Positions 1 to 33,163 of a stretch of DNA of 64,000 nucleotides are shown one piece after another. A program made the translations under genes and the position numbers. Source of the stretch: an uncultured SAR116 cluster alpha proteobacterium. Lineage in GTDB: Bacteria > Pseudomonadota > Alphaproteobacteria > Puniceispirillales > Marisalimonadaceae. The stretch covers positions 1-64,000 of the forward strand of contig CABZSR010000004.1 in assembly GCA_902528415.1 (NCBI GenBank), in the 5' to 3' direction. The stretch's first letter is position 1; each line of letters opens with the position of its first letter. The notes beneath the pieces were generated by a model that worked only from the letters and a program-made list of their open reading frames with translations, was not told where the DNA came from and did not search any database.

Positions 1-1060
1 AAATTTCAAGTCCTTCTAAAAGAAATTTAGCGGCACTAAAAGATGAAGAAGCAATAATAAAGGAGTTGGGTAATGCATACCATTCAACATGCCATTGACC
101 AGTTGCTCTTTCATGGTCAAGAACCATAGCATCAAGCATTGACGAATGATGTTCCCGTAGCAGTTTTGAACAAGCTAACATTACCTCTGAAGAAATAGGA
201 TTTCTTTTCTGGGGCATTGTAGAAGAAGAACCTCTTCCATGAAGGAAAGGTTCAGCAACTTCCTGTGTTTCAGTTTGCATCATTAACATTACATCATAGG
301 CTATTTTACCTAGCGAAGCTCCTACCAAAGCAAGCCAACCAGTTACTTCACAAAAGTTATCTCTAATTGAGTGCCAACTTACATCAGGCACATTCAAATT
401 TAATTCGTCTGCTAATACTGATTGAGTTTTTAATCCATCAATTTCACCCAGCGAAGCAAGAGTTCCCGCAGCACCGAAGAATGAAAGATTAAACACACGA
501 GCTTTAATTTCTTCTAGTCTTTTTATATGTCTATCAATACTAGACAACCAAGTTGATGCCTTATAGCCAAAAGATACTGGTAAGGCGTGTTGTAAGTGTG
601 TTCTTCCTGCCATTGGGGTTTTTATGTGCTCATTGATAATTTTAACTAATGCATTTGAAATAGAATCTAAATCTGAAGATAGTAGTTTAAATCCTTCCCT
701 TATTTGTATTACATCAGTAGTATCCATAATATCTTGGGTAGTAGCGCCCCAGTGACAGTATTGTCCATAACCATCACTTACATTATCGCTTAATTGCTCT
801 ACTACAGGTAAAATAGGGTAGCCAACAATTGATGTCCTCTTTTGTAGTTTTTCCCAATCAATTATATCTATTTTGGCTGCGTCACTTATTTTTTGTCCAG
901 CTTCACTCGGTATAATACCTAGTTTAGACTGTGATCTTGCTAAAGCGGCTTCGACATCTAAATATAATTGAGTGGTTTTTTCATCTGAAAACAAATAATG
1001 CATTTCACTTGTTCCAAACATTTCACCCCATATTTTTGAATTAGTAACTAAGGCTGGCAT
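1..1060 (-). CDS. PcaB/adenylosuccinate lyase-family protein, 3' end cut by window
   Basis: Open frame of about 353 codons running off the left edge, so the C-terminus is missing. It starts at ATG 1060. The fumarate-lyase superfamily signature GSSSTMPQKRNP lies near residues 273-284, where the mobile loop with the catalytic Ser sits in this superfamily. Further conserved blocks are GATTQDIMDT and AGRTHLQHALP, which carry the usual His/Thr residues. The spacing and the PQKRNP form fit 3-carboxy-cis,cis-muconate cycloisomerase (PcaB)-like members better than PurB, but the substrate cannot be fixed from this. A crotonase lies 14 bp upstream on the same strand, then a tautomerase-like gene, which suggests a small catabolic operon rather than purine synthesis. 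Family call is strong; function is inferred. Confidence 0.8.
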   Translation of the reverse strand, partial: MPALVTNSKIWGEMFGTSEMHYLFSDEKTTQLYLDVEAALARSQSKLGIIPSEAGQKISDAAKIDIIDWEKLQKRTSIVGYPILPVVEQLSDNVSDGYGQYCHWGATTQDIMDTTDVIQIREGFKLLSSDLDSISNALVKIINEHIKTPMAGRTHLQHALPVSFGYKASTWLSSIDRHIKRLEEIKARVFNLSFFGAAGTLASLGEIDGLKTQSVLADELNLNVPDVSWHSIRDNFCEVTGWLALVGASLGKIAYDVMLMMQTETQEVAEPFLHGRGSSSTMPQKRNPISSEVMLACSKLLREHHSSMLDAMVLDHERATGQWHVEWYALPNSFIIASSSFSAAKFLLEGLEI

Positions 1061-1074
1061 TATTTATTTCCCTA

Positions 1075-1869
1075 TCATTTTTTTTGATACCAAGAGGCAA
1101 CTCTTTTCTCAAGAAAACTATTCAATCCCTCAGTTGCTTCGCTAGTCATTCTCTTTTGAGAATGCTCTAGTATTAAATCTTCAAATTTATTGTCTGATAA
1201 TATTAAACCACTTTCAATTAGTACTCTCTTTTTTGTCATTTCCAGCGCACTAGGAGCACACATTAACAAACTTTCAATAATAGACTTCACAACATCATTC
1301 AGCTCACCTGTTTCACAAATCTGGTGGACTAGTCCAATATTCTTGGCTTCATGAGCATCAAAACGTTCGCAAGTTAACGCGTATCTTCTAACGTTCCTGA
1401 CACCTATACTAGCATTTAGATGAGGAATAATGATTCCTGCCATTACACCCCATCTTGCTTCGGCAATAGAAAAAATAGCATCTTCGCTAGCAACTACAAT
1501 ATCAGCTGCAGCTGCAATACCAGTACCCCCTCCAAAGCAGCCTCCATGGATCATAGCTATAGTAGGTTTTGGGAATTCTGTAAGTCCCTTTATTGCAGAA
1601 GCTGTTTTTCTAGATACCTCTATATTTTCTTCTTTATTTAATTTACCAATCTCTTTTAGCCACTCTAAATCTGCACCACCTTGAAAGTGCTTTCCATTAC
1701 CTCTTATAAGAACTACTCTAACATCATCATTATTATATAAAGATGTAAAACTTTTAATTAACTCGTCAATCATAGTTCCATTATAAGCATTGTTTCTTTC
1801 AGGACGATTTAAGATAACTTCGGCTATACCTCTGCTATCTATACTTGTTAAAACAACACCCTCACTCAT
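1075..1869 (-). CDS. Enoyl-CoA hydratase/isomerase (crotonase) family protein
   Basis: 264 aa, the usual crotonase length. The oxyanion-hole region FQGGADLEWL (about 63-72) and the HGGCFGGGTGIAAAADI block (about 109-125) are clear. The position that holds the first catalytic Glu of classical enoyl-CoA hydratases (after GGGC in rat ECH) appears to be Thr/Gly here, while the second Glu is kept in AEARWG. Simple hydratase chemistry is therefore uncertain; isomerase, hydrolase or lyase members of the fold are possible. The stop TGA is directly followed by TAG, a tandem stop. The gene lies between the PcaB-like gene and a tautomerase-like gene on the same strand, so a shared catabolic role on a CoA-activated or unsaturated acid is likely. 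Substrate unknown. Confidence 0.85.
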   Translation of the reverse strand: MSEGVVLTSIDSRGIAEVILNRPERNNAYNGTMIDELIKSFTSLYNNDDVRVVLIRGNGKHFQGGADLEWLKEIGKLNKEENIEVSRKTASAIKGLTEFPKPTIAMIHGGCFGGGTGIAAAADIVVASEDAIFSIAEARWGVMAGIIIPHLNASIGVRNVRRYALTCERFDAHEAKNIGLVHQICETGELNDVVKSIIESLLMCAPSALEMTKKRVLIESGLILSDNKFEDLILEHSQKRMTSEATEGLNSFLEKRVASWYQKK

Positions 1870-2352: not shown

Positions 2353-3210
2353 ATGAATAATGAAGAATTAGATATCAATCATTTAAATAAATGGCTTGGC
2401 AATATAGAAATGGTTACAGATTATCTTACACCAATTGTTGAACAAAGGTATAGGGCCACTCTAAACATTGATCCAGGTGACCCTGCAATTGGTGACACTG
2501 CGACTACTGGGTTACATTGGATGTTAGGTTGGAATTTAAAAAAGAATGATGAACTTGGTGTTGATTCTCATCCCGCACGTGGTGACTTTCTGCCACCAGT
2601 CCCACTGCCAAGAAGAATGTGGGCAGGAAGCCAAATTAAAGTTAAATCCCCTCTAAGAGTAGGTGATAAGGTAATAAAAAAATCTAAAGTAGCTGATATC
2701 AAATTAAAAGAAGGTCGAACAGGTAAGTTATGTTTTGTAACTGCAGAATATGAATATTTAGTTGATGACGACGTTCGTTTACATGAATCACATAATATTG
2801 TTTATCGTGATGTAACTAAGGCTGGGGGAGGGTCTGGAGTATCGGATGTTATACCAAAAGATGCAGATTTCACTGAAACAATTTTTATGCATCCAACTAT
2901 TTTATTTCGTTATTCGGCAATTGGTTTTGTTGGGCACAGAATTCATTATGATTATCCATATACTAAAAATGAAGAAAATTATCCTGATTTAATAGTGCAT
3001 GGTCCTCTACAAGCAACATTCTTACTTAGGGCTGCAGAAAAACTTAAGGGTAAACCTGTAACTTCTTTTAATCACAAAGTCATGGCTCCTGTTTTTGCGA
3101 ATAGCGATTATATAATCGGCGCTAAAGACAATACAGACGGAAGTGTTACTTGTTGGGGAGCAGTCGAAGGCTCGGGCATGACCATGCAAGCTGAAGCTCA
3201 TTTTGAATAA
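2353..3210 (+). CDS. HTD2-type acyl-CoA hydratase (mesaconyl-C4/itaconyl-CoA hydratase-like)
   Basis: 285 aa. The N-terminal part has the GDTATTGLHWMLGW and LPPVPLPRRMWAGS blocks typical of double-hotdog hydratases annotated as HTD2 or mesaconyl-C4-CoA hydratase, and the C-terminal part has IHYDYPYT and LIVHGPLQATFLL, the second hotdog with its conserved His. Length matches that family. The RBS GAGG (2341-2344) precedes the ATG. It is the first gene of a plus-strand cluster with MmgE/PrpD, CaiB, CitE/HpcH, MaoC and TRAP genes. By analogy with P. aeruginosa PA0878 it would hydrate itaconyl-CoA to citramalyl-CoA; by analogy with Chloroflexus Meh it would hydrate mesaconyl-C4-CoA. Both end at citramalyl-CoA. 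The exact substrate is inference. Confidence 0.75.
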   Translation: MNNEELDINHLNKWLGNIEMVTDYLTPIVEQRYRATLNIDPGDPAIGDTATTGLHWMLGWNLKKNDELGVDSHPARGDFLPPVPLPRRMWAGSQIKVKSPLRVGDKVIKKSKVADIKLKEGRTGKLCFVTAEYEYLVDDDVRLHESHNIVYRDVTKAGGGSGVSDVIPKDADFTETIFMHPTILFRYSAIGFVGHRIHYDYPYTKNEENYPDLIVHGPLQATFLLRAAEKLKGKPVTSFNHKVMAPVFANSDYIIGAKDNTDGSVTCWGAVEGSGMTMQAEAHFE

Positions 3211-3227
3211 AATTATAGGAGGAAAAC

Positions 3228-4550
3228 ATGGTGTCGATAACAAAATTATTTGGTAGTTATGGTTGTAATTGTAAATTAGACAGCTTTAATGATGAAATGA
3301 GATTTTTTGCAAGAATGTCTATATTAGACTGGTGTGGTGTTGCCTATGCTGCAAAAAAAGAACCGGTTTCTAAAATCGTTTCTGATATGGTTAAAGAAGA
3401 AAATGGTGTTAACCAAGCAAGGGTAATTTCTACTGGTCATAAAGTTTCCTCCAGAGGAGCAGCCCTTGCTAATGGAGCAACAGGGCATGCATTAGATTAT
3501 GATGACACGCATTTTCTTTTTGTAGGCCATCCGACTTCCTGTGCATTACCAGTTGCTTTGGCATTAGGTGAAGAATTAGGCTCTTCTATTGAAGATATAT
3601 TACTTGCCTATATGGCAGGAGTGGAGGTTTCAACGAGAATAGGACATATTTTAGGATACTCTCATTATAATGCGGGCTTTCACCAAACCGCCACCAGTGG
3701 TTCGTTTGGTGCAACAATTGTTGCGTCAAAACTATTAGATTTGAATGAAGATCAAACAATAAATGCTCTTGGATTAGTATCCACAAGAGCTTCAGGAATA
3801 AAATCTCAATTTGGAACTATGGGTAAACCATTTCATGCCGGAATGGCTGCTTCAAATGGTATTGAAGCTGCTAAATTGTCAAAGCTTGGATTTGTATCAA
3901 AAGAAGATGGTATTGAATGTGAGCAGGGTTTTTTCTTAACACACGGTTGGGATAAAAAATTTCCTCCTAGAGCTATAGAAAATTTAGGAACAGATTTTTT
4001 ATTTCCTGAAATCAAATACAAGTTCCATGCATGTTGTCACGGTCTACACTCTTTCTTAGAGGCGCTGGATGAGATGAAGTTAGAAAATAATTTTAACCCT
4101 GAGACAATAGAGGAAATCGCAATTGAGACTAACCCTTCATGGTTGAAAGTTTGTAATATTGAAGAGCCAAAAACAGGCTTGGAATCAAAATTTTCTTATA
4201 AATTAACTGCAGCCATGTCTATTTATGGCAAAGATACTTCTAATTTAGATACATATAGCGATGAAATTTGTTTTGATGATAATTTAAATAATATTAGAGA
4301 TAAAGTAAGAGTGATACCCAATGATAATTTAAGCAACACTCAATCTTTAATTTCAATTAAGGATGGTTCTAGAAATGTCAAAAACAAACACGACTTGTCA
4401 GATAAAATTGAGAATAATATTCTAAAAACTAAAATAGTAAATAAGTCAGTTTCTTTACTTTCAGAGACCAAATCAAATCAAATTTCTAAAATATTAAACG
4501 CTCCTAATGAAAATAAAGTAGATGCTCTAGTTGATTGTTTGGTTAGCTAA
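3228..4550 (+). CDS. MmgE/PrpD family protein
   Basis: 440 aa, the normal length. It carries the family motif GHALDYDDTH and later FHAGMAASNGIEAA and KFHACCHGLHSFLEAL. The superfamily includes 2-methylcitrate dehydratase and cis-aconitate decarboxylase (the itaconate-forming enzyme). RBS AGGAGG lies before ATG 3228, 17 bp after the hydratase gene; its stop shares one base with the next ATG (TAATG), indicating translational coupling. P. aeruginosa has a PrpD-family gene (PA0881) at the same place in its itaconate operon, with no settled role. A function on citramalate, 2-methylmalate or a related C5 acid is possible but cannot be read from sequence. Confidence 0.85.
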   Translation: MVSITKLFGSYGCNCKLDSFNDEMRFFARMSILDWCGVAYAAKKEPVSKIVSDMVKEENGVNQARVISTGHKVSSRGAALANGATGHALDYDDTHFLFVGHPTSCALPVALALGEELGSSIEDILLAYMAGVEVSTRIGHILGYSHYNAGFHQTATSGSFGATIVASKLLDLNEDQTINALGLVSTRASGIKSQFGTMGKPFHAGMAASNGIEAAKLSKLGFVSKEDGIECEQGFFLTHGWDKKFPPRAIENLGTDFLFPEIKYKFHACCHGLHSFLEALDEMKLENNFNPETIEEIAIETNPSWLKVCNIEEPKTGLESKFSYKLTAAMSIYGKDTSNLDTYSDEICFDDNLNNIRDKVRVIPNDNLSNTQSLISIKDGSRNVKNKHDLSDKIENNILKTKIVNKSVSLLSETKSNQISKILNAPNENKVDALVDCLVS

Positions 4551-5707
4551 TGATTGCACAAAATTCATCTAAAGATTTAGAGGGTTTGTTGGTAGTAACA
4601 GTTGAACAAGCCGTTGCTGCTCCGTACACATCATGTAGACTAGCTGACGCAGGTGCTAGAGTAATTAAAGTTGAAAGACCAGAGGGAGATTTTGCCAGGA
4701 ATTATGATAGTAACGCACTTGGCAATAGTGCCTATTTTGTTTGGTTAAATAGGGGCAAAGAATCAATTGCCTTAGATCTTAAAAATAAAGAAGATATGGC
4801 GGTTTTTGAAAATATTATTTCTAAATCAGATATTTTAATTCAAAACTTAGCCCCAGGTGCATTTGAACGCCTTGGTTTAGATTTAATAGAATTAAGATTA
4901 AAATATCCATCTTTAATTACATGTTCTATTTCTGGTTTTGGAGATGAAGGCCCTTATAAAAATCAAAAAGCCTATGACATGTTAATACAAGCTGAAACTG
5001 GAGTTATTGATATTACTGGTCTACCAGATAAAGAGGGATTTGATGGAAGAGCAAAAGTTGGTCCATCAGTTTGTGATATTTCTGCAGGTATGACCGCATA
5101 TCAAGCAATTTTGCAAGCAATAATTAAAAGAAGTATAACTGGAAAAGGAAGACACATTTCAGTATCAATGTTTAATTCACTCGCTGATTGGATGAACCCT
5201 TTTTATTTAGGTTATGTTTATAATCAAAAAGTTCCCAAAAGAAATGGTATGACACACCCAATAATTGTCCCATATGGAGCGTATGCTTGTAAGGACAAGC
5301 TAACTTTATTGATAGCAATCCAAAATGACCGAGAATGGGCCAATTTGTGTAAAATAGTTTTGGATGATGAATTTATGGCAAATGATAATCGTTTTAAAAC
5401 TAATTCCGATCGAGTGGCTAATAGAGAGCTAACAGAGAAAATTATTCAAGATAAATTTATGAAATTTGAACGAGAAGAATTAATTGGAAAACTTGAAGAA
5501 GCTAGTGTTGCTTATGGAAGAATTTCTGATATGGAACAATTAAAAAACCATCCACAAAATAACTTTCTAGAAATTGATACAAAAAATGGAAAGGTAAAAG
5601 TTTTAGGCCCTGGTGCTATACATGATAATTTTATACCAGATGTAAACAAAATGCCTGAATTAGATGAGCATGGCAAAATGATTAGAAGTGAATTTAGTTC
5701 TATATAA
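4550..5707 (+). CDS. CaiB/BaiF family (class III) CoA-transferase, first copy
   Basis: 385 aa. The class III CoA-transferase features are present: LADAGARVIKVERPEGD near residues 31-47, the FVWLNRGKESIALDL block (63-77), SISGFGDEGP (126-135) and the catalytic Asp at 176 in CDISAG. It overlaps the PrpD gene by one base. Next to a CitE/HpcH-type lyase and hydratases, the parsimonious role is moving CoA from succinyl-CoA or another donor to a branched C5 dicarboxylate, as Ict (PA0882) does with itaconate. A mesaconyl-CoA C1-C4 transferase role, as Mct in Chloroflexus, is an alternative because Mct belongs to the same family. Confidence 0.88.
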   Translation: MIAQNSSKDLEGLLVVTVEQAVAAPYTSCRLADAGARVIKVERPEGDFARNYDSNALGNSAYFVWLNRGKESIALDLKNKEDMAVFENIISKSDILIQNLAPGAFERLGLDLIELRLKYPSLITCSISGFGDEGPYKNQKAYDMLIQAETGVIDITGLPDKEGFDGRAKVGPSVCDISAGMTAYQAILQAIIKRSITGKGRHISVSMFNSLADWMNPFYLGYVYNQKVPKRNGMTHPIIVPYGAYACKDKLTLLIAIQNDREWANLCKIVLDDEFMANDNRFKTNSDRVANRELTEKIIQDKFMKFEREELIGKLEEASVAYGRISDMEQLKNHPQNNFLEIDTKNGKVKVLGPGAIHDNFIPDVNKMPELDEHGKMIRSEFSSI

Positions 5708-5731
5708 AATTATAAAAAATAGGAGTTTACT

Positions 5732-6544
5732 TTGAGAAGCATTTTATTTTTACCAACAGACAAAATTGAGAGATTACCTAAAGCTCTAGGATCTGGAGCG
5801 GACAAAGTTATTTTTGACTTAGAAGATGGTCTGGCTCACGATAAAAAAGCCCTTGGTAGATCTAATTTTGCTGATTTAGCAAATAGAAACTTTGATGGTC
5901 AACCGGACAAGTTTTTATTACGAATTAACGCCTTGGACACTGACGAATATCAAGATGATATAAAGATGTTAAAATCTCTATCAACTCTTCCTTATTCTAT
6001 AGCCATCCCCAAAATAGAGTCTGCCGATGAGTGTAGAACTTTTTTAAAAGACCTTGGAACTAATATTTTAATATTACCACAAATAGAAACTCCACGGGGT
6101 ATCGCAACAGTTGAGAGTTGGAATTGTTCAAATATAGAATTTTCTGGAATAGGATTTGGTTCAGCAGATTATTGCGCATCTACAGGTGGAGACATGGGTA
6201 AAGCTAGTTTAGCTTACGGTAGAGGTAAAATTATTAACGCTGCTGCTTTATACAATGCCGATGCCCTTGATGGTGTATGGTTAGATTTTAGAGATCCTGA
6301 TGGTTGTAGAGAAGAAACCCAATATGTCAAAACTATGGGATTTAAAGGGCGGTTTGCAATTCATCCAGATCAAATTAAACCGATTCATGATGCTTACAGA
6401 CCGACAAGTCAAGAATTAGAATGGGCAAAGGGTGTTTTAGAAGAAGCTAAAACTGCAGGTACTGGAGCCTTCAAATATCAGGGCAAAATGGTTGACGCAC
6501 CAGTATTAGCAGTAGCTAGACAGATTATGTCAAGGGAGGATTAG
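5732..6544 (+). CDS. HpcH/HpaI-CitE family lyase, probable citramalyl-CoA lyase
   Basis: 270 aa, starting at TTG 5732 with RBS AGGAG at 5721-5725; no better ATG fits the N-terminus RSILFLPTDKIERLPKAL. The TIM-barrel motifs are IFDLEDGL (metal-binding Glu/Asp region), LRINALDT, LPQIETPRGI and GFGSADYCAS. Single-domain CitE-like proteins of this size cleave citramalyl-CoA, malyl-CoA or beta-methylmalyl-CoA. In this context citramalyl-CoA to acetyl-CoA plus pyruvate is the likely final step, as for Ccl (PA0883). The stop is immediately followed by the ATG of the MaoC gene, so the two are co-translated. Family sure, substrate inferred. Confidence 0.85.
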   Translation: MRSILFLPTDKIERLPKALGSGADKVIFDLEDGLAHDKKALGRSNFADLANRNFDGQPDKFLLRINALDTDEYQDDIKMLKSLSTLPYSIAIPKIESADECRTFLKDLGTNILILPQIETPRGIATVESWNCSNIEFSGIGFGSADYCASTGGDMGKASLAYGRGKIINAAALYNADALDGVWLDFRDPDGCREETQYVKTMGFKGRFAIHPDQIKPIHDAYRPTSQELEWAKGVLEEAKTAGTGAFKYQGKMVDAPVLAVARQIMSRED

Positions 6545-7084
6545 ATGGATGACAACACATACGGAATTAGAAAAATAGGGCCACAAAGGTATAGAGAAGA
6601 TCCAGGCAGATATTTTGAAGATTTTCAAGTTGGTGATGTTTACGAACATTGGCCAGGTAGAACAGTAAGTGAAGCTGACAATATATGGTTTACCAACCTA
6701 ACAATGAATACACACCCAATACATTTTGATGCAAATTATGCATCTAAGTCAGAATTTGGAAAATATTTAGTAAACTCTGCGTTCACATTGGCTCTAGTAA
6801 CTGGAATGTGTGTTAGCGGTACAAGTCAAAAAGCTATTGCTAATTTGGGATGGGAAGAAATTAAAATCCCAGCACCTGTATTTGTTGGAGATACTTTATA
6901 TTCTGAAACAGAAGTCTTAGACAAAAGAGAATCAAAATCCAGACCAACTCAAGGTATTGTTAAGGTTAGACATATTGGGAAAAATCAGGATAAAGTTGTC
7001 GTGATGGATATGGTTAGGTCTTTCCTTGTGGCTAAACGAGGGCATAGTGTTGTTGACAAAATTATAGAAGAAACCGCTAATTAA
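6545..7084 (+). CDS. MaoC-like acyl-CoA hydratase/dehydratase
   Basis: 179 aa single-hotdog MaoC protein. The N-terminal block YFEDFQVGDVYEHWPGRTVS (about 22-41) and the active-site helix NTHPIHFDANYA are typical of members annotated as mesaconyl-CoA hydratase or beta-methylmalyl-CoA dehydratase; the His of the usual D/N-x-x-x-x-H pair is present. Its ATG starts at the base after the lyase stop, and the second CaiB gene follows after 12 bp. Having both this and the HTD2-type hydratase in one operon suggests two hydration steps or two isomeric enoyl-CoA substrates, for example mesaconyl-C1-CoA and mesaconyl-C4-CoA or itaconyl-CoA. Confidence 0.85.
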   Translation: MDDNTYGIRKIGPQRYREDPGRYFEDFQVGDVYEHWPGRTVSEADNIWFTNLTMNTHPIHFDANYASKSEFGKYLVNSAFTLALVTGMCVSGTSQKAIANLGWEEIKIPAPVFVGDTLYSETEVLDKRESKSRPTQGIVKVRHIGKNQDKVVVMDMVRSFLVAKRGHSVVDKIIEETAN

Positions 7085-7096
7085 AGAGCAATATTA

Positions 7097-8302
7097 ATGA
7101 GTTTACCTTTATCTGGCGTTAAAGTAATTGCCTTTGAACAGTACGGTGCAGGTCCATTTGGAACACAATATTTAGCGGATATGGGTGCAGACGTTATTAA
7201 AGTAGAGCCAGCAGGAACTAGCGGAGATTATTTGAGAGATATTGGCCCTTATTTTATAGATGGAGACAATAAGAATTCTGCATCTAGTATCTTTTTTCAG
7301 GCACTTAACAGAAACAAAAGAAGCATAACCTTGGATATATTAACCAAGGAAGGTAAAATTATACTCCAGAAATTAGTGGAAAATGCTGATGCTGTTTGTA
7401 ACAATTTAAGAGGTGATGTTCCAGAAAAACTTGGAATAACTTATGAACAACTTAAACCATTTAATAAAGCTATTGTTGCTGCTCATTGTTCAGCATATGG
7501 AAGAGAAGGTCCTAGAAAAAATTGGCCTGGATATGATTATTTGATGCAGGCTGAGGCAGGCTATTTTTCATTAACAGGTGAGCCAAGTGGACCACCAACA
7601 AGATTTGGACTTTCAATTGTAGATTATATGTCAGGACTTACAATGTCCTTTGGTCTAGTGAGCGCTGTTTTGTCAGCAAGATCTCATGGTTTGGGAAGAG
7701 ACGTAGATGTAAACTTGTTTGACACAGCTATGTTTAATCAAAGCTATATGGCTGCATGGACATTGAATACAGAGTTTAAAAGTGAAAGATTAGATAGATC
7801 GGCTCATCCCATTTTAGTTCCATGTCAATTATATAAAACAAAAGATGGCTGGATTTTTTTGATGTGTAATAAGGAGAGCTTTTGGCCAATATTGTGTAAA
7901 AAAATTGGTAGAGAAGATTTAAGTAAAGACCAAAGATTTGAAAACTTTGCTTGTAGACAAGAAAACCGAGACGAAATTACTAAAATTCTAGATAATGAAT
8001 TAATGAAAAAAAACACATCAGATTGGTTGAAAGAATTTGGTGGAATAGTGCCAGCAGCGCCAATCTTAGATTTAAAAGAATCTCTTGAAAATCCATTTTT
8101 ACAAGATAGAAAAAATATACAACATCTAAAAACTAAACGTGGCGAAGATATAAGTTTATTGAAAACCCCAGTTCATTTATCAGACACCAATTTTCGTGAT
8201 AAAACTGCTCCAGAACTTGGCGACGATACGCATGACGTACTTGAGGAAATTGGTTATAATAAAGAACAAATAAGTAATTTTAAAAATAAAGGCATAATAT
8301 AG
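7097..8302 (+). CDS. CaiB/BaiF family CoA-transferase, second copy
   Basis: 401 aa. Core motifs are YLADMGADVIKVEPAG (25-40), ALNRNKRSITLD (69-80), CSAYGREGPR (131-140) and catalytic Asp 176 in IVDYMSG. It differs clearly from the first copy, so this is not a recent tandem duplication. It closes the enzymatic part of the cluster; the TRAP genes begin 111 bp later. With two CaiB enzymes one may activate the imported acid while the other shifts CoA between carboxylates or uses another donor. No sequence feature decides which. Confidence 0.87.
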   Translation: MSLPLSGVKVIAFEQYGAGPFGTQYLADMGADVIKVEPAGTSGDYLRDIGPYFIDGDNKNSASSIFFQALNRNKRSITLDILTKEGKIILQKLVENADAVCNNLRGDVPEKLGITYEQLKPFNKAIVAAHCSAYGREGPRKNWPGYDYLMQAEAGYFSLTGEPSGPPTRFGLSIVDYMSGLTMSFGLVSAVLSARSHGLGRDVDVNLFDTAMFNQSYMAAWTLNTEFKSERLDRSAHPILVPCQLYKTKDGWIFLMCNKESFWPILCKKIGREDLSKDQRFENFACRQENRDEITKILDNELMKKNTSDWLKEFGGIVPAAPILDLKESLENPFLQDRKNIQHLKTKRGEDISLLKTPVHLSDTNFRDKTAPELGDDTHDVLEEIGYNKEQISNFKNKGII

Positions 8303-8354
8303 TTTAAATTACATAACATATTAATCAATTTCTTCTATTTCATTGCAATTAAGG

Positions 8355-8382
8355 GTTTACCTCATTCATTTAAAGTTATAGT
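8355..8382 (+). promoter_or_regulatory. Possible sigma70 promoter ahead of the TRAP genes
   Basis: GTTTAC (8355-8360) and TATAGT (8377-8382) are separated by 16 bp in the 111-bp gap before dctP. The -35 is weak and the region is AT-rich, so chance is a real possibility. It would allow the TRAP genes to be expressed separately from the upstream enzymes. Confidence 0.3.
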
Positions 8383-8413
8383 TTGTGATTCTAAATATTT
8401 GGAGGAAATTTTA

Positions 8414-9584
8414 ATGAAATTTACTAAACTATCACTTTTGGGCGCAGTTAGTGCTGTGGCTCTTACGTTTGCAGCTGGAACTAACCTAGCTATTGCAGAC
8501 GGACATTCAGTTAAACCTATTAAAATGCGTTGGGCTTCAGACCACTCTGGCCCCCCCCCATCCTGCTGCGATTGCGGAGATGTTCTTTGCTGAGCAGGTT
8601 GAGAAAAAAATTCCTGGAAGTAAAGTTCAAATTTATTGGGCTAAGTCTTTATATAATGTTCCTAAGGGAACACAGGCCTTAACCAAAGGTAACCTAGAGA
8701 TGATGACAGGCCAGTTTGGAAAGACATCTAGTGTTGAGCCATATGCTAACACAATTGTTGGCGCTGGAAAGTTAACTACTCCTGGTGCAATTAATGGTCT
8801 AGACGGTACAAAAACTTTTGCACAACTTAAAAAGGTTTTTAATGACAAGCATGGAATAACAATTTTTGGTTCAGGACACCTAAGTATGTATATGGGTGCT
8901 GGTGCTGTAAAAAGTAGAATGTTAGTTCCTGGTGACTTTGCTGGAAAAAAAGTAAGAAGTATGGGTCCGGCTGAAAATGCTTTGTTAGGCGCATTAGGTG
9001 CTAATCCAACCACAATGGCTTTCGGTGATGTTCCACCTGCTCTGCAGACCGGAGTTATTGATGGATTGCTAACTAGTTTAGGTGGGTTTAATGCCACCAA
9101 GGAGCAAGCCCCTTACTTTACAGTTGCAGGTATCAACGGAATTGTAGGTGACTACTACTGGATGGGAGCATCTAACAAATGGTGGTCCACACTTGATAAA
9201 AAGCAACAAGCAGCCCTAGCTGATATCATAATGAATGATTTCATACCATATCAAAAAGCGATTAATTTTTGTAATGATAAGAGATTAGTTGATAAGTTTA
9301 AGGTTACTGACAAAAGTGCACCTGGTATTTATGTTATGAGTCCTGCTGAAGCTGGCGTATTACAGAAAAAAGAAGGTGGTGCTACAAACGACTGGATCAA
9401 AACTAAAGTTGACGATACCGGTGATAAAATGGTTGACCAATTTACTGCTGAAGCTAAGGCCTTAGTTGCAGCCAATCCTATGGGTTCAAGTGACTTAGAA
9501 AAGACTGACTGTTCAGCGTTTGCTTCTGATTTTGCTAAGTTTGCAAAGGGAACTCCTCTGTTTAAGAAAAAGTCTAGAAAATAA
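8414..9584 (+). CDS. dctP: TRAP transporter periplasmic binding protein (DctP family), frame broken at a C9 tract
   Basis: Start ATG 8414 with RBS GGAGG at 8401-8405. A signal peptide (hydrophobic MKFTKLSLLGAVSAVALTFA, then AIA|DG) is followed by ASDHSGPP, where a run of nine C at 8551-8559 throws the frame to a stop at 8591-8593. Reading eight C restores SGPPHPAAIAEMFFAEQ and an otherwise intact protein of about 389 aa ending at 9584. The downstream body has the DctP pattern: VQIYWAKSLYNVPKGTQALT, DFAGKKVRSMGPAENALLGALGANP and GVIDGLLT. The protein would capture an organic acid, most likely the substrate of the upstream enzymes, and pass it to DctQM. The extra C may be a sequencing error, a true mutation, or a slippage switch. 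Confidence 0.85.
8551..8559 (+). repeat. Homopolymer C9 tract inside dctP
   Basis: Nine consecutive C in a strongly AT-rich genome, just after the signal-peptide region of dctP. The run length is one base away from the in-frame length (eight). Nothing similar was noticed in the rest of the window. Confidence 0.95.
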
Positions 9585-9591
9585 TGTATCA

Positions 9592-9620
9592 AAGAAGGTC
9601 TGACAAAGTCAGACCTTCTT
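9592..9620 (+). terminator. Strong hairpin between dctP and dctQM (partial terminator or 3' stabiliser)
   Basis: A perfect 13-bp inverted repeat (9592-9604 and 9608-9620) with a 3-base AAA loop starts 7 bp after the dctP stop and ends 16 bp before dctQ. No long U-run follows, so it is more likely an attenuator or mRNA 3' protector that raises binding-protein output relative to the membrane subunits, as is common after genes for binding proteins, than a full terminator. Confidence 0.75.
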
Positions 9621-9636
9621 GATTTGAAAATTCATT

Positions 9637-10188
9637 ATGGACAGCTTCTATAACATTTCTCATAAAATACAGGATTTGATAACTTCTATTTTGGGAAGAT
9701 GTTCAGCAATTTTAATGATAGCTGTTACACTATTTGCATTAGCTGAAATTATTAGAAGATACATTTTTGGAGTTGTTTTTGAATGGGGCCAAGATGCTGT
9801 AATTTATATGATGGTTTCTTCGGTTGCATTTTATATATGCGTTACCCAAATTAACAGGAGCCATTTAGTTATGACTGCTGTTTTACAATTATTAAATGCT
9901 AAAGGGTTCCATCGAACAGTGGGTTTCTGTAAGATTTTTATCTCCATGTTTGTATCAGTTTTTACCGGATCTTTAACTTATACAGCTTATTCAACAATTG
10001 AGTACTCTATTCAAATTGGAGAAAGAACTGAGAGTTTGTTTTTTTATATGTGGCCATTCTACTTTGTACTAGCTATTGGCATGGGCTTGATGTCTCTGGT
10101 TGCTTTTTTGCAATTTATTGAAGATGTGCATAGTTACATCAAAGGTGATCATTTTACGGCTACAGTTGAAGCGGCAACCGATGTATAA
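9637..10188 (+). CDS. dctQ: TRAP transporter small membrane subunit (DctQ family)
   Basis: 183 aa with four hydrophobic segments, the DctQ topology. The second segment region contains FEWGQDAVIYMMVSSVAFYI, the conserved block of the family, followed by RSHLVMTAV (the usual R-x-H-I/L motif). It sits between dctP and dctM in the standard gene order, with dctM starting 24 bp downstream. It couples to DctM in the inner membrane; substrate specificity comes from DctP. Confidence 0.9.
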   Translation: MDSFYNISHKIQDLITSILGRCSAILMIAVTLFALAEIIRRYIFGVVFEWGQDAVIYMMVSSVAFYICVTQINRSHLVMTAVLQLLNAKGFHRTVGFCKIFISMFVSVFTGSLTYTAYSTIEYSIQIGERTESLFFYMWPFYFVLAIGMGLMSLVAFLQFIEDVHSYIKGDHFTATVEAATDV

Positions 10189-10212
10189 CATAATTAATTT
10201 AGGAAATTTATA

Positions 10213-11496
10213 ATGTGGGCTCTTGGTGGATCTTTATTTACCCTTTTATTTGCAGGTGCTCCAATTGGAATTGCCCTTGCTGGCGCTACAGCACTTTTAG
10301 TTTTATTCGATGATTTCTTAACATACAGCACACTATTTGAAGCTTTTTTTAGTTTTCTTACAAAATATACATTAGTAGCAATACCATTTTTTATTTTTGC
10401 TGGGTTTTTAATGGAAAAAACAGGACTAGTAGCTGGTCTGTTTAGATTTGCTGATTCCGTTGTAGGATGGGTTCCTGGTGGATTTGCCTATGCCACTTTA
10501 CTTGCAGCCGTTTTATTTGGAGCTATCTCAGGTTCTTCAACTGCTATGGCTGCTGCAATGAGTGTTATTGCATACCCTGAATTGATCAAAAGAGGCTATC
10601 CTAAATGGATGGCAGCAGGTGTAATAGCTTCGGCTGGTGGCATTGCTCTTTTAATACCTCCAAGTATTACTCTTATTTTATTTGGAGTAATTACAGAAAT
10701 GTCTATAGTTGACTTGTTTTTTGCTGGGATTATTCCTGGTATAATGCTCGCTATTAGTGACGCTGTAATTATAGTAAGTGTTTCCCTGTTTATAAAATTA
10801 CCAAGAGGTAAATTTGATTTATGTGAGGTATGGCGTTCATTTAGGGATGCTGTTCCTGCTTTACTAATGCCAGTGATTATTCTTGGAGGCTTATATGGCG
10901 GTTTGTTTACTCCTACAGAAGCGGGAGCAGCGGCAGCTAGTTATGCTCTCTTTTATGGATTAATTTTTAAACGCAAAACATTCGTTAAAGAGTTAATGCC
11001 CACAACTCTTAGAACAATGAACTTAACAGCAGTAGTTTTCTTTTTATTAGGTTGTGTGGGTATTTTCCAATTTTATCTTGCCAATATGGGTTGGCCGCAA
11101 ATGATTGCAGAATGGGCCGGCGAACTAGGATTAACTCGTTTAGGCTTTTTATTTGCTTTGATGGGATCTTTGTTGTTTTTATCAATGTTTTTAACGGGCG
11201 TAGCTATTTTGGTATTAACTGTTCCTATTTACTTTCCTGTAGCATTAGCACTTGGTGTAGACCCGATCCATCTCGGAATACTAACTGCTCTTTGTATAGA
11301 GATTGGTAGTGTAATCCCTCCAGTTGGTTTAAATTTGTTTGCTGTAAGTGGTGTCACTGGTTTACCAGTAACTACAGTTATAAAAGGTTCATTCCCCTTT
11401 TGTATCTCTGATACGTGCGTTTTAATTATTGTACTTTTATTTCCTGCATTAGCTTTAACCCTGCCAGAGCTTTTAGTGGTATCTCACTTTAAGTAG
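10213..11496 (+). CDS. dctM: TRAP transporter large permease subunit (DctM family)
   Basis: 427 aa, highly hydrophobic. Characteristic DctM stretches are AIPFFIFAGFLMEKTG, GAISGSSTAMAAAM and GIALLIPPSITLILFGVITE (the Na+-coupled permease core), LYGGLFTPTEAGAAAA and IGSVIPPVGLNLFAVSG. It is the Na+-driven permease of the tripartite transporter. The 3' end overlaps the 3' end of the convergent amidase gene by 13 bp, so no room remains for a separate terminator. Confidence 0.93.
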   Translation: MWALGGSLFTLLFAGAPIGIALAGATALLVLFDDFLTYSTLFEAFFSFLTKYTLVAIPFFIFAGFLMEKTGLVAGLFRFADSVVGWVPGGFAYATLLAAVLFGAISGSSTAMAAAMSVIAYPELIKRGYPKWMAAGVIASAGGIALLIPPSITLILFGVITEMSIVDLFFAGIIPGIMLAISDAVIIVSVSLFIKLPRGKFDLCEVWRSFRDAVPALLMPVIILGGLYGGLFTPTEAGAAAASYALFYGLIFKRKTFVKELMPTTLRTMNLTAVVFFLLGCVGIFQFYLANMGWPQMIAEWAGELGLTRLGFLFALMGSLLFLSMFLTGVAILVLTVPIYFPVALALGVDPIHLGILTALCIEIGSVIPPVGLNLFAVSGVTGLPVTTVIKGSFPFCISDTCVLIIVLLFPALALTLPELLVVSHFK

Positions 11497-12767
11497 GTAT
11501 TCATAATAGTATTAGCATAATCTAAAAGTTGGTTATCATTTCCAAATTTTGTGACTAGCTGGCAGCCAATTGGCAGTTCTTTATCTCCCTTAAATAAAGG
11601 TAAGGTAACACAAGGGTTACCATTCAAGGACCATGTAGTATTAAACATAGGTGAGCCTGTATACCCGAGACCTGCAAGAGCTTCACCAGGAGCGCTTGGG
11701 GTGATAATCATGTCAATATCGTTAAAAATTAAATCTGTCTCATGTTTTAAAATACTTAGTTTTTTAAGGGCAATTTTATAGTGTTCATTGGTTACTTGAT
11801 ATCCATCATTTAATCTTCCGTTTCTCAACTGATCACTTAATTCGTCATAATGATTAAATCTTTCAAAAGATATAGATCTTTTAAACTCATAACCACTTAT
11901 ATCTAAATGTAATTCGTCTGCCTTAGATATTAATGCATCAATATTAAGGTCAATAATATTTAATTTATCTGTTCTAAGAATATCTACAAATGTCTCTAGG
12001 TTAGTCTGGGTAGATAAATCTGTATTATTCCAGTGAGGAGTTTTAACAAAACCAATTTTCAATTTCCTCAAGTCTAGATTTTGTGGTTTTACAATTTTTT
12101 CTTCTAATAAAATTGATCGAAAAAGAGATAAATCTTCTACTGACCTTGTCATTAGGCCCAATGTGTCAATTGAAGGAGAGTTTGGAAGAATTCCAGATTT
12201 ATCAAAGTCCCCATATGTTGGTTTATAACCAATGACACCACAATAGGCTGCTGGTCTAATAACCGAACCAGTCGTCTGAGTTCCAAAACAAACTGGTGCC
12301 ATCATGGAAGCAACAGCCGCTGCTGATCCAGAACTAGAGCCACCTGGAGTAAAGTCTTTATTATGTGGATTTGTTGTGAGGCCTGGCGCCCTATGTCCTA
12401 ATTCTGTAGATACGGTTTTGCCCATAAACACACAACCGGCTTGCTTTGAGACAGCAACCGATGCAGCATCTCTTGCTGGAATATTATTTTTGTAAAAAGG
12501 TGTGCCAAAACCTGTAGGCACATTACTAGCATCTATAATATCTTTTATTCCAAATGGTATACCAAGTGCAATGTTGTTATTTTGTTCATCTAATTGTTTT
12601 GATTTTTTTAGTGCATTTTCTTCATCTAAATATATCCACGCTTTCACAATATCTTCTTTTTCTTTGATTCTTTCAAAGCAACTTAATACCCATTCATGTA
12701 TGGAAAGATTTTTATTTCTTATAAGGTTAATTGCTTCACTTGCCGTTAATTCGAAAGGTTTTGTCAT
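11484..12767 (-). CDS. Amidase-signature family protein, first copy
   Basis: 427 aa. The Ser-cisSer-Lys triad is visible: Lys in GIPFGIKDIIDA, cis-Ser in GGSSSGSAAAVA and nucleophile Ser in TQTTGSVIRPA. The family hydrolyses amides or carbamates; sequence does not tell which. There is no GatB/GatC partner nearby, so it is not the tRNA amidotransferase subunit. It is transcribed against dctM and away from the PrpD gene at 12872. It ends in TGA with an open frame beyond, useful evidence that TGA is a stop in this genome. Confidence 0.85.
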   Translation of the reverse strand: MTKPFELTASEAINLIRNKNLSIHEWVLSCFERIKEKEDIVKAWIYLDEENALKKSKQLDEQNNNIALGIPFGIKDIIDASNVPTGFGTPFYKNNIPARDAASVAVSKQAGCVFMGKTVSTELGHRAPGLTTNPHNKDFTPGGSSSGSAAAVASMMAPVCFGTQTTGSVIRPAAYCGVIGYKPTYGDFDKSGILPNSPSIDTLGLMTRSVEDLSLFRSILLEEKIVKPQNLDLRKLKIGFVKTPHWNNTDLSTQTNLETFVDILRTDKLNIIDLNIDALISKADELHLDISGYEFKRSISFERFNHYDELSDQLRNGRLNDGYQVTNEHYKIALKKLSILKHETDLIFNDIDMIITPSAPGEALAGLGYTGSPMFNTTWSLNGNPCVTLPLFKGDKELPIGCQLVTKFGNDNQLLDYANTIMNTYLK

Positions 12768-12871: not shown

Positions 12872-14254
12872 ATGGAAAATATGACTGAAAAATTTGCTGA
12901 ATTTTGTGAGCAGTTGAAATATGAAGATCTTTCTCCAGAAGTTATTAAAAGAACAAAATTACTTATCTTGGATACTGTAGGTATTATTATCAGGGCCAGA
13001 CATGACGCAGAATCAACATCTAGCTTAGTTTCTGCAATTGATAAATTAGAAATGAGCAATGGTAGCTGCCAAGTGTTTTCGGATAAAAAAACATATTCAC
13101 CAAGCGCTGCAGCACTCTTAAATGGAACTTTAGCGCACTCTCTTGATTTTGACGACACACATGCTGAAGCCTCACTTCATTCAAGTGCGCCTATTTTATC
13201 AGCCGCGCTGGCAGCTGCGCAGATGAATAAATCATCTGGCCAAGAATTAATTACAGCATGTGTTGTTGGTTACGAAGTTCAGATAAGACTAGGTTTGGCT
13301 GGAGGATCTTCAGCGCATTATAAAAAAGGATTTCACCCTTCTGCAACATGCGGTATTTTTGGTGCGGCAGCTGCAGCAGGATACTTGATGGGATTAACTA
13401 AGGAGCAGTATATATCTGCCTTTGGTATTGCTTTAAGTCAATCTGCAGGGTCTATGCAATTTTTAACGGACGGTGCGTGGACTAAAAGATCTCATGTTGG
13501 GCAGGCTGCTCAAAATGGTTTAAGTTGTGCAATTATGGCTGGTGAAGGTTTCAAAGGTCCTTCACAAGCCTTCGAAGGACAATGGGGTTATTTACACTCT
13601 TATGCTTCAGGTGGTGATGTCAAAAAAGCAACAAACGGTCTTGGAGAAGAGTTTGAAACTCTCAATCTTGGTGTTAAACCCTATCCGTCATGTAGATATA
13701 GTCATGCTGCAATAGATGGATTAATAGAGTTGAAAAAAGAATTAAAATTTTCATCTGATGATTTAGATGATATTGATATCGGCTTGTCAGAAACTGCTTT
13801 GAACATAATTGGTTATCCATTAACTGACAAGCAACACCCTAAAAGTGTTGTTGATGGTCAGTTTTCGATGCCATTCTGTGCTGCAGTTACAGTTAAAAGT
13901 GGTGGATTGCAATGGGATGATTATAAAAATCATCTAAATAACAAAGATACACTCTCATTATGTAATAAAATAAAGGTAAGCCCTGACGAGGATGCAGAAA
14001 AATGTTGTCCTGAATATATGAGTGCCAAAGTAAAAGTTGTGGTAAAAGGAGAAAAATACGAAAAATTCGTAAAAATTCCTAAAGGAGAACCAGAAAACTT
14101 TATGGAGGACGTAGAATTTATATCAAAATTTAAGGGATTAACTGAGCCATATCTATCAAAACAAAGAGTCGATCAATTGACAGATTTAATGCTTAAAATT
14201 GATCAAGCTAACAATGTAAATTCAATTTTTGAATATAGTCAGATTGATATTTAG
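12872..14254 (+). CDS. MmgE/PrpD family protein, second copy
   Basis: 460 aa with LAHSLDFDDTHAEASLHSSA (the HSLDFDDTH family motif), KGFHPSATCGIFGAAAAAGY and KPYPSCRYSHAAIDGL, the active-site blocks of the fold. RBS AAGGAGG precedes the ATG. It is quite diverged from the copy at 3228 and lies 20 bp upstream of an acyl-CoA dehydrogenase gene, so the two probably form one operon. Likely a dehydratase, isomerase or decarboxylase acting on a branched hydroxy-di- or tricarboxylate; substrate unknown. Confidence 0.85.
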   Translation: MENMTEKFAEFCEQLKYEDLSPEVIKRTKLLILDTVGIIIRARHDAESTSSLVSAIDKLEMSNGSCQVFSDKKTYSPSAAALLNGTLAHSLDFDDTHAEASLHSSAPILSAALAAAQMNKSSGQELITACVVGYEVQIRLGLAGGSSAHYKKGFHPSATCGIFGAAAAAGYLMGLTKEQYISAFGIALSQSAGSMQFLTDGAWTKRSHVGQAAQNGLSCAIMAGEGFKGPSQAFEGQWGYLHSYASGGDVKKATNGLGEEFETLNLGVKPYPSCRYSHAAIDGLIELKKELKFSSDDLDDIDIGLSETALNIIGYPLTDKQHPKSVVDGQFSMPFCAAVTVKSGGLQWDDYKNHLNNKDTLSLCNKIKVSPDEDAEKCCPEYMSAKVKVVVKGEKYEKFVKIPKGEPENFMEDVEFISKFKGLTEPYLSKQRVDQLTDLMLKIDQANNVNSIFEYSQIDI

Positions 14255-14274: not shown

Positions 14275-15450
14275 ATGAATGATCAAAGAGTTCTAGAAGT
14301 CGAGCAAAAAAGTCCTGTTTCAGAAGAAGATAATCTTATTATAGACACAGTAAATAAGTTTCTTGAAAGAGATGTAAAGCCATTTGTTAAGGAGTTTGAA
14401 TCAGAAGATAAATACCCTCAATTAATTGCTGATAAAATGGCAGATTTAGGTCTTTTTGGAGCAACGATATCCCCAGAATATGGAGGCTTGGGTTTATCGG
14501 CAGTTACTTATTCCAAAATTGTGGAAAATGTCTCTGCAGTGTGGATGTCTGTATCAGGTATTTTTAATTCTCATTTAATAATGTGTGCGGCTGTTGAGAG
14601 GTTTGGTTCCGAAGAGATGAAACAGTATTATCTTCCAAAGTTTGCATCCGGCGAAATAAGAGGTGGTATTGCATTAACTGAACCAGACTGTGGAACTGAC
14701 CTCCAATCAATTAAAACAAAAGCAGAAAAAGTAGGCGATGACTACATCATAAATGGGACTAAAACTTGGATAACAAATTCAGTTCAGGGTTCAATTTTAG
14801 CAGTTTTAGTCAAGACTGACACAAATATTAAACCTGCCCATAAGGGAATGAGTTTAATACTTGTAGAAAAAAAGCACGGATTTGTAGCTAGAAAATTGAA
14901 AAAACTTGGATATAGAGGCATAGATACAGGAGAAGTGCAACTTGAAAATGTAAAGGTGCCTAAGTCTAACCTTATTGGTGAAATAGAAGGTAAGGGTTTA
15001 CAGCAAATTTTAGCTGGCCTTGAGTTAGGTAGAATAAATGTAGCTGCAAGGGGTGTTGGAGTTGCTAGAGCATCTCTAGACGATTCTATAGAGTATGCTA
15101 AAACTAGGAAAACTTTTGGCAAGCCTATAAGTGAACATCAATCAATTCAAATTAAATTAGCAGAAATGGCGACTAAGCTTGAGGCGGCAAGGTTATTAAC
15201 AGAGCAAGCCGCAAAAGCTTATGACTCAGGAAACAGGTCTGATTTGCAGGCAGGAATGGCTAAACTTTTTGCTACTGAAACGGCATTGTTTAATTCAACG
15301 GAAGCAATGAGAATTCATGGTGGATTTGGATATTCCCCAGAATATAATATTGAGAGATATTATAGGGACGCACCTCTATTAGCCATAGGTGAGGGTACTA
15401 ACGAATTACAAAAACTTATTATTGCCAAGCAATTAGTTTCAGATAATTAA
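14275..15450 (+). CDS. Acyl-CoA dehydrogenase
   Basis: 391 aa. FAD and substrate motifs: ALTEPDCGTDLQSIKTKA, INGTKTWITNS, QSIQIKLAEMATKLEAARLL, and the C-terminal IHGGFGYSPEYNIERYYRDA followed by GEGTNELQ, where the Glu is the catalytic base of short-chain and glutaryl-type dehydrogenases. The RBS AAGGAG lies before ATG. It would pass electrons to ETF; ETF genes are not in the window. The P. aeruginosa itaconate operon also includes an acyl-CoA dehydrogenase (PA0879), so a link to the C5 pathway is plausible. The 3' end overlaps azlD by 4 bp, convergent. Confidence 0.92.
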   Translation: MNDQRVLEVEQKSPVSEEDNLIIDTVNKFLERDVKPFVKEFESEDKYPQLIADKMADLGLFGATISPEYGGLGLSAVTYSKIVENVSAVWMSVSGIFNSHLIMCAAVERFGSEEMKQYYLPKFASGEIRGGIALTEPDCGTDLQSIKTKAEKVGDDYIINGTKTWITNSVQGSILAVLVKTDTNIKPAHKGMSLILVEKKHGFVARKLKKLGYRGIDTGEVQLENVKVPKSNLIGEIEGKGLQQILAGLELGRINVAARGVGVARASLDDSIEYAKTRKTFGKPISEHQSIQIKLAEMATKLEAARLLTEQAAKAYDSGNRSDLQAGMAKLFATETALFNSTEAMRIHGGFGYSPEYNIERYYRDAPLLAIGEGTNELQKLIIAKQLVSDN

Positions 15451-15803
15451 AAGTACTGATTATAAAAAATTGTTGTACTAAAAGCGCTTACCCCAACTAG
15501 TAATCCCATAATTGGTTTTTTGGGCATGCATAAAAATACGATTACCCCAATCACGAATGGTATTAATCTTTCAAGCATATTAGTTTGAGCTAAGGCGCCA
15601 GTAGGGAAGAAAATAATTCTAACCATCAATCCTGTAGTCATCGCAAAGGCAACAGCATTTATCCATTTTGCAAAAAGACTATCTTTATCGATTTTGCTAG
15701 ATAATGTAACACCAAGAATTCTCCAAATGAAAATACCTAACCCTGCTATTAACAACATAAACCAAGGCATCAACTCCGGGCTAATGAATGAAAGATCATG
15801 CAT
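15447..15803 (-). CDS. azlD: AzlD-family branched-chain amino acid export subunit
   Basis: 118 aa with about four hydrophobic segments (around 12-30, 50-66, 80-95 and 98-112), the AzlD layout. It follows azlC with an 8-bp overlap, the usual pairing of this two-component exporter. AzlCD exports branched-chain amino acids or analogues. It converges on the acyl-CoA dehydrogenase gene. Confidence 0.8.
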   Translation of the reverse strand: MHDLSFISPELMPWFMLLIAGLGIFIWRILGVTLSSKIDKDSLFAKWINAVAFAMTTGLMVRIIFFPTGALAQTNMLERLIPFVIGVIVFLCMPKKPIMGLLVGVSAFSTTIFYNQYF

Positions 15804-31926: not shown

Positions 31927-31944
31927 ATAATTAAGGATTTTAAG

Positions 31945-33072: not shown

Positions 33073-33088
33073 TAAAATAATCATTAAC

Positions 33089-33101
33089 TTGACCTAGTCA
33101 A
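33089..33101. promoter_or_regulatory. Short inverted repeat ahead of the aminotransferase gene
   Basis: TTGAC-CTA-GTCAA (5-3-5) lies 62 bp before ATG 33164. The left arm could also serve as a -35 (TTGACC), but no convincing -10 follows at the right distance. It could be an operator; at this size chance occurrence in AT-rich DNA is quite possible. Confidence 0.25.
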
Positions 33102-33163
33102 TTCATGTTGTCACAGTAATGGGATAAGAAGCCAGTTTTTGGTTTAGCTTTTGGAGATATATT

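Follow-up and report, generated by a model that had tools for sequence, protein, structure and literature searches.

A conserved gene block of a SAR116 family predicted to break down a branched succinate-type acid through CoA thioesters

Most bacteria of the SAR116 cluster, a common group in surface seawater, have yet to be cultured. We analysed a 64,000-nucleotide stretch (hereafter, the window) starting at base 1 of contig CABZSR010000004.1 from an uncultured SAR116 alphaproteobacterium (genome of 1.72 Mb, 58 contigs, 73% completeness), which carries a block of genes predicted to serve the uptake and CoA-dependent catabolism of a dicarboxylic acid. Nine genes between positions 2353 and 11496 lie on the forward strand, and every product contains a domain exceeding its Pfam gathering score, confirming the families that an earlier note had read from the same DNA. 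These are an HTD2/FAS1_DH-type hydratase homologous to Ich of Pseudomonas aeruginosa (2353..3210); an MmgE/PrpD protein (PrpD-1, 3228..4550); two family III CoA-transferases, CaiB-A of the Ict clade (4550..5707) and CaiB-B of a second cluster type (7097..8302); between them a CitE/HpcH-type (HpcH/HpaI) lyase (5732..6544) and a RipB-like MaoC hydratase with a single hot-dog domain (6545..7084); and the DctP (8414..9584), DctQ (9637..10188; Pfam domain) and DctM (10213..11496; TIGR00786, 352 bits, cut-off 268) components of a tripartite ATP-independent periplasmic (TRAP) transporter. The earlier note described this set as a complete cluster ending at 11496. The listed genes stand, the boundary does not, and completeness is a matter of interpretation: synteny in relatives extends the conserved block to 15450, adding an amidase on the reverse strand (11484..12767), situated between the TRAP genes and a second MmgE/PrpD protein (PrpD-2, 12872..14254), and an acyl-CoA dehydrogenase (14275..15450), the latter two on the forward strand.

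The gene set and order at 2353-11496 are real and beyond chance, because the order is identical, CaiB-A exempted, in all 18 loci fetched from the host's own SAR116 family (hereafter, the family). The constant order runs from HTD2 to PrpD-2 and includes the amidase (18/18); CaiB-A is missing in 8 of these loci, and the dehydrogenase only in L050, which is truncated by a contig end. Lyase matches of 69-100% identity were found in 46 of 136 genomes of the order, all 46 within the family (58 genomes), whereas the remaining matches did not exceed 36%; the 12 family genomes lacking a match are 51-84% complete. A second family sample, overlapping the first in genomes and scored for presence only, comprised 45 loci from a contig profile search with the lyase alignment. 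The lyase, MaoC and CaiB-B are present in all 45, HTD2, PrpD-1, the amidase and each TRAP gene in 44, PrpD-2 in 40, the dehydrogenase in 39 and CaiB-A in 36. All losses other than those of CaiB-A fall in loci shorter than the full 20.8 kb. One of the nine loci without CaiB-A starts inside the lyase gene and the other eight retain HTD2 and PrpD-1; the gene is missing in two genera of the family. Since CaiB-A alone is lost from full-length loci, the dehydrogenase is a member of the block and CaiB-A is dispensable.

To place the enzymes, trees were built from the window plus five family loci out of the 18 fetched (13 near-duplicates were left out), after removal of rows that fell short of a length limit or whose best match scored less than 90 bits. 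All except those of the lyase are quick trees supported by the Shimodaira-Hasegawa-like approximate likelihood ratio test (SH-aLRT) only, and several carry long-branch warnings. CaiB-A and CaiB-B occupy separate clades of the CoA-transferase tree (66 rows), the former grouping with P. aeruginosa Ict in a clade of 29 rows (SH-aLRT 100) and the latter falling in one of 24 rows (100). Both retain the Asp of the Y/F-D motif, and both belong to CoA_transf_3 by Pfam, so neither is of the RipA type (acetyl-CoA hydrolase/transferase family). Seven loci from other families fall in the sub-clade of CaiB-A (99), namely Shinella, Paracoccaceae La6 and five from the same order. Each encodes a Ccl-like lyase along with a homologue of Ich, and four also encode a PA0879-type dehydrogenase. 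The dehydrogenase of the window, which the earlier note had pointed out at 14275 as the counterpart of the P. aeruginosa enzyme, is present there and is not of the PA0879 type: in a 57-row tree it falls in a 30-row clade (SH-aLRT 100), outside the 20-row clade (97) of PA0879, the methylsuccinyl-C4-CoA dehydrogenase among the proven methylsuccinate enzymes. The MaoC protein scores 234 of 340 bits with the RipB_Ich model and is 58% identical to RipB of Paraburkholderia caribensis, which itself passes the NCBIfam cut-off. It keeps N55-x4-H60, and N55 aligns opposite an Asp of 1q6w which we take to be the catalytic Asp of (R)-hydratases; resolution in the MaoC tree is low, with 4 of its 25 inner branches starred.

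The HTD2 protein departs from its relatives at a conspicuous position. Its closest solved relative, deposited as an itaconyl-CoA hydratase (E 2e-50), is identical to a P. aeruginosa protein. Instead of the N-x4-H-x-D motif of Ich, however, the window reads V193-x4-H198, the otherwise invariant Asn being replaced by Val. Of the 63 family loci examined in the two overlapping samples, 62 show the motif, and every one of these reads GFVG; beyond the family, Asn occupies the position in all 35 motif matches and in 29 of 29 of a partly overlapping set. Ratios of nonsynonymous to synonymous substitution rates (dN/dS) of 0.05-0.09 against three relatives indicate that the gene is under purifying selection and not decaying. 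The family stem in the HTD2 tree (41 rows) is long (1.64). The Asn-less enzyme most likely catalyses a reaction other than plain hydration, for example a double-bond shift between itaconyl-CoA and mesaconyl-CoA.

The 270-residue lyase retains R64, E119, D146 and D255, the acidic and Arg residues of the family. By motif rather than by a direct alignment, E119 and D146 would equal Glu112 and Asp138, the Mg ligands of Rv2498c given in excerpts of PMC6689899. A careful tree of 35 rows placed the family, on a stem of 2.0, outside the Ccl clade (99/99), and the approximately unbiased (AU) test rejected neither a clade with Ccl (p 0.29) nor one with the RipC/Azospirillum lyases (p 0.11). Addition of L225 and L229 (37 rows) shortened the stem to 1.23 and gave a 97/94 split from a 17-row Ccl clade; L225 joined the family at only 75/88, and a clade with Ccl was again not rejected (AU, p 0.26). 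The lyase falls on the RipC side of this split without joining RipC itself; it leans, without firm placement, to the side of RipC and of the lyases that accompany MaoC and CaiB. The earlier note had held that grouping with unrelated CitE proteins would speak against its citramalyl-CoA lyase; the protein does lie outside the Ccl clade, the AU test does not exclude Ccl, and members of the RipC side may still be citramalyl-CoA lyases. A second CitE/HpcH lyase of the same genome (G000:C5:11516-12316, L067) scores higher with RipC_Ccl (261 vs 165 bits), and the 20 kb around it hold no match to the other block enzymes. The MaoC and the lyase of the window both score below their NCBIfam equivalog cut-offs, as does the P. 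caribensis lyase. We rejected these cut-offs as disproof of function, because the Ccl of P. aeruginosa also fails (158 of 375).

PrpD-1 and PrpD-2 belong to a 13-row (SH-aLRT 100) and a 19-row (99) clade, respectively, of a 46-row tree, and the PA0881-type methylsuccinate isomerase of P. aeruginosa is separate from both (100). Nevertheless, either protein could still catalyse methylsuccinate isomerisation, since both retain the catalytic residues of the methylsuccinate isomerase as given in excerpts of PMC12290011 (His, Asp/Glu, Lys and a Tyr as second base; in PrpD-1 H87, D90, H101, Y147, H152, K200 and K265). According to the same excerpts, a dicarboxylate backbone of four carbons is common to the MmgE/PrpD substrates that have been characterised. 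It is improbable that one of them is a cis-aconitate decarboxylase providing a tricarboxylate entry, with itaconate made inside the cell. Both do match solved cis-aconitate decarboxylases, and in Halalkalicoccus tcuA and a PrpF-domain gene accompany MaoC and CaiB at one locus. However, IDS epimerase and a Bacillus subtilis protein are matched more strongly, the second-base Tyr of the epimerase is kept, and the B. subtilis 'IRG1' falls outside the decarboxylase clusters in the excerpted Cupriavidus necator study (PMC12290011). The Azospirillum-type MmgE/PrpD proteins (L046, L186, L190, L042 and L189) have the second-base Tyr replaced by Gln (Leu in L189) and, lacking it, perhaps catalyse a reaction different from that of PrpD-2. 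One of these loci, on a Pseudosulfitobacter plasmid (L042, 7001-14495), carries MaoC, MmgE/PrpD, acyl-CoA dehydrogenase and CoA ester lyase genes followed by genes annotated as a cobalamin-dependent protein and an acyl-CoA mutase.

The DctP open reading frame that had been listed (TTG 8493) covers just the 3' portion of its gene. A signal peptide starts at ATG 8414 in a different frame, and the frame is broken within a run of C at 8551-8559. As relatives carry intact copies, the break is likely an assembly error. Judged by the 12 ligand contacts of IctP given in excerpts of PMC12599236, intact family DctP proteins retain K94, R169, F192, V234 and Y236 and differ at the other seven (V34, V35, K41, S91, Q171, N209 and N213); in this low-identity alignment three of the six polar residues that hold the ligand are lost. 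By contrast, 11 of the same 12 contacts are kept in two IctP-type TRAP proteins that Alphaproteobacteria encode beside PA0879-type genes. The itaconate transporter (IctPQM-like) of the earlier note is therefore not borne out. Orthologues of DctP (38-74% identity) occur in 7 of 287 other genomes searched, with neighbours that are unlike this block and mixed across the seven loci, including 2-hydroxyacid dehydrogenases in L211 and amidase-like genes with an M20 peptidase in L212. An attempt to name the ligand from these neighbours (20 proteins typed in the seven loci) gave no consistent signal. That the block is a plain itaconate cluster equal to PA0878-PA0886, including its transporter, as the note had proposed, is accordingly hard to sustain: the broad families agree, whereas the dehydrogenase, PrpD-1 and DctP differ in type from their P. 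aeruginosa counterparts, as the lyase probably does too. The likeness does hold for CaiB-A in the Ict clade, for HTD2 as an Ich homologue, for the lyase residues and for simpler P. aeruginosa-like clusters at five of eight loci of the same order.

From the gene order, families, clades, residues, conservation and purifying selection observed here we infer reactions, substrates and products as follows. CoA-dependent catabolism of a dicarboxylic acid, the broader claim of the earlier note, is supported by these data. About evenly balanced, in our estimate, is the more specific view that the block is a hybrid of two convergent itaconate/methylsuccinate routes, acting on a branched succinate-type acid by way of a beta-hydroxyacyl-CoA lyase, with a five-carbon (C5) acid as the likeliest substrate. 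The cluster may have arisen by the merging of type (i), HTD2/Ich, PrpD-1 and CaiB-A (Ict), with type (ii), which would have contributed the RipC-RipB-like set of lyase, MaoC and CaiB-B together with PrpD-2 and the acyl-CoA dehydrogenase. The TRAP system would import the acid, and the amidase could release it from an amide, if one is present; the MmgE/PrpD enzymes would interconvert stereoisomers of the free acid, predicted to be a substituted succinate; and a CaiB enzyme would transfer CoA to it from succinyl-CoA. The dehydrogenase would then yield an enoyl-CoA, MaoC would hydrate it to the beta-hydroxyacyl-CoA, and the Mg-dependent lyase would cleave the latter to acetyl-CoA and a 2-oxo acid. 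In the C5 case the lyase substrate would be (S)-citramalyl-CoA and the product pyruvate, and the likeliest candidate substrates are methylsuccinate, itaconate and mesaconate. Three features lead to the C5 reading and keep the citramalyl-CoA route of the earlier note plausible: the Ict-clade position of CaiB-A, the likeness of MaoC to RipB and the retained residues of the lyase. The dehydrogenase and the isomerases would add methylsuccinate to the substrate range.

Several findings weigh against the C5 reading: the exchange of Asn for Val193 and the long stem in HTD2, a DctP without the IctP pocket and with dissimilar orthologue neighbourhoods, a dehydrogenase and a PrpD-1 outside the proven methylsuccinate clades, and a lyase without firm placement that sits on a long stem and is outscored with RipC_Ccl by a second lyase of the genome. 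In addition, the Rv2498c paper, as excerpted (PMC6689899), regards bioinformatics by itself as an unreliable guide to function within PF03328. The DctP pocket, V193 and the long stems fit a possible shift of substrate. It is thus a serious, if less probable, alternative that the same chemistry serves a non-C5 substituted succinate with a larger alkyl or heteroatom group, perhaps delivered as an amide, the lyase releasing a larger 2-oxo acid together with acetyl-CoA or a different acyl-CoA. Such a substrate would also suit the amidase in the block, with a 27%-identical amidase in the Azospirillum relative, and the adjoining PcaB/adenylosuccinate-lyase-like gene described below; it agrees less well with CaiB-A within the Ict clade, MaoC near RipB and five same-order clusters that resemble ordinary C5 clusters. 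Equally tentative is the idea of an undescribed pathway of the family, in which MaoC would have taken over hydration. The Val-bearing Ich homologue, kept under purifying selection, would have turned into either a dedicated isomerase or a hydratase/dehydratase acting on a novel substituted succinate, imported by a TRAP system whose specificity is likewise new.

The block probably marks a carbon source important to this SAR116 family, given that its lyase is found in 46 of 58 family genomes. In the open-access library searched we found no paper combining SAR116 with itaconate or with C5-dicarboxylate.

Upstream of HTD2, two reverse-strand genes are possible further members. A crotonase-type enoyl-CoA hydratase (1075..1869; ECH_1, 156 bits; top NCBIfam match gamma-carboxygeranoyl-CoA hydratase, 212 of 426 bits) stands divergent to HTD2; the gene is present in 40 of the 45 loci of the second family sample, and the five without it are short. 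An adenylosuccinate-lyase/PcaB-like lyase (2..1060) adjoins it in 17 of 18 family loci, the 18th being cut. The window holds the first 353 residues of this protein, cut by the contig edge and 98.6% identical to that of L061, which at full length has Lyase_1 and ADSL_C domains; the top NCBIfam match, PRK09053, gives 366 bits for the fragment and 454 for the whole L061 protein (cut-off 595). On the other side, an AzlC/AzlD-like pair (15447-16515, opposite strand) immediately follows the dehydrogenase, and a thiamine diphosphate-dependent enzyme (19070-20617; PRK07586, 720 bits, cut-off 363) lies 3.6 kb downstream of the block. The latter may be a pathway member, since in genus g4 (L053-L058) its orthologue stands directly beside HTD2 in divergent orientation. 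Further away, a tandem of an FAA-hydrolase-like gene, a third CaiB-type CoA-transferase and a class III aminotransferase (30793-34477) is possibly another small catabolic cluster.

Comparison with other genomes separates the two cluster types. In other genomes of the order, five of eight loci (L146-L149, L152) unite CaiB-A (51-54%), Ich and a Ccl-like lyase (type 1). Four of the five also hold PrpD-1 (41-44%), and two a PA0879-type dehydrogenase; the remaining three loci differ. For type 2, we took 20 loci around dehydrogenase matches (from the best 33) in 386 alphaproteobacterial genomes, eight of which combine PrpD, MaoC, the dehydrogenase and CaiB-B (the PrpD is PrpD-2-like in seven of them and Azospirillum-like in the eighth); identities of the seven to the window are 66-69% for the dehydrogenase, 63-67% for MaoC and 49-52% for PrpD-2. 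None of these 20 loci contains an HTD2 gene, and none of 20 loci around HTD2 matches (from the best 27) contains a window-type MaoC. Plasmid loci were also selected, 2 to 7 of the 15-25 matches listed per search (23 in all), two of the searches contributing none. Within the stretches fetched, both hydratase types occur together in none of 57 other loci (17 plasmid, 20 HTD2 and 20 dehydrogenase). Trios of lyase, MaoC and CaiB-B are found in L225 and L229, the L225 lyase (39%) being the closest found outside the family and its MaoC 77% identical.

Several known systems share parts of the block. The Mct, Mch, Meh and Mcl enzymes of the 3-hydroxypropionate bicycle come from the same superfamilies, and at least one protein for each (HpcH lyase, MaoC, CaiB, HTD2) is present; a role in this second half of the bicycle, assimilating glyoxylate and propionyl-CoA, is nonetheless very improbable. 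The subfamilies are wrong for Mct and Mch: the CaiB proteins reach 62 and 25 of 725 bits with intramolecular Mct, no Mct match exceeds the cut-off in the 73%-complete genome, and MaoC is a single RipB-like domain (234 bits) rather than the 358-position mesaconyl-CoA hydratase (71 bits). The lyase, with 270 residues and CitE/RipC-like best matches, is not Mcl-like. We rejected this candidate on the intramolecular Mct and double-hot-dog Mch comparisons, which did not extend to Meh. The alphaproteobacterial PrpD-MaoC-acyl-CoA dehydrogenase-CaiB operons (L176, L179-L184, L186 and Azospirillum L046) resemble type 2, L046 also sharing the lyase, the amidase (27% identical) and nearby TRAP genes; to our knowledge, these operons have no assigned function. 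With the RipABC system of the Yersinia pestis type, compared via P. caribensis ripB and its neighbours (L043), the block shares a RipB-like MaoC adjoining a RipC-leaning HpcH lyase, whereas its CoA-transferases are of family III (CaiB) and not RipA. Finally, the itaconate-methylsuccinate cluster of P. aeruginosa and Cupriavidus (PA0878-PA0886; excerpts of PMC12290011 and PMC12599236) has in common with the block an Ich-type HTD2, an Ict-clade CaiB, MmgE/PrpD, an HpcH lyase, an acyl-CoA dehydrogenase and a TRAP system (IctPQM there). The SAR116 dehydrogenase, PrpD-1 and DctP, and probably the lyase, are of other clades or pockets, the HTD2 Asn is lost, and a MaoC, a second CaiB, a second MmgE/PrpD and an amidase are added. 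The block unites in one locus the hydratase types of both convergently evolved itaconate routes.

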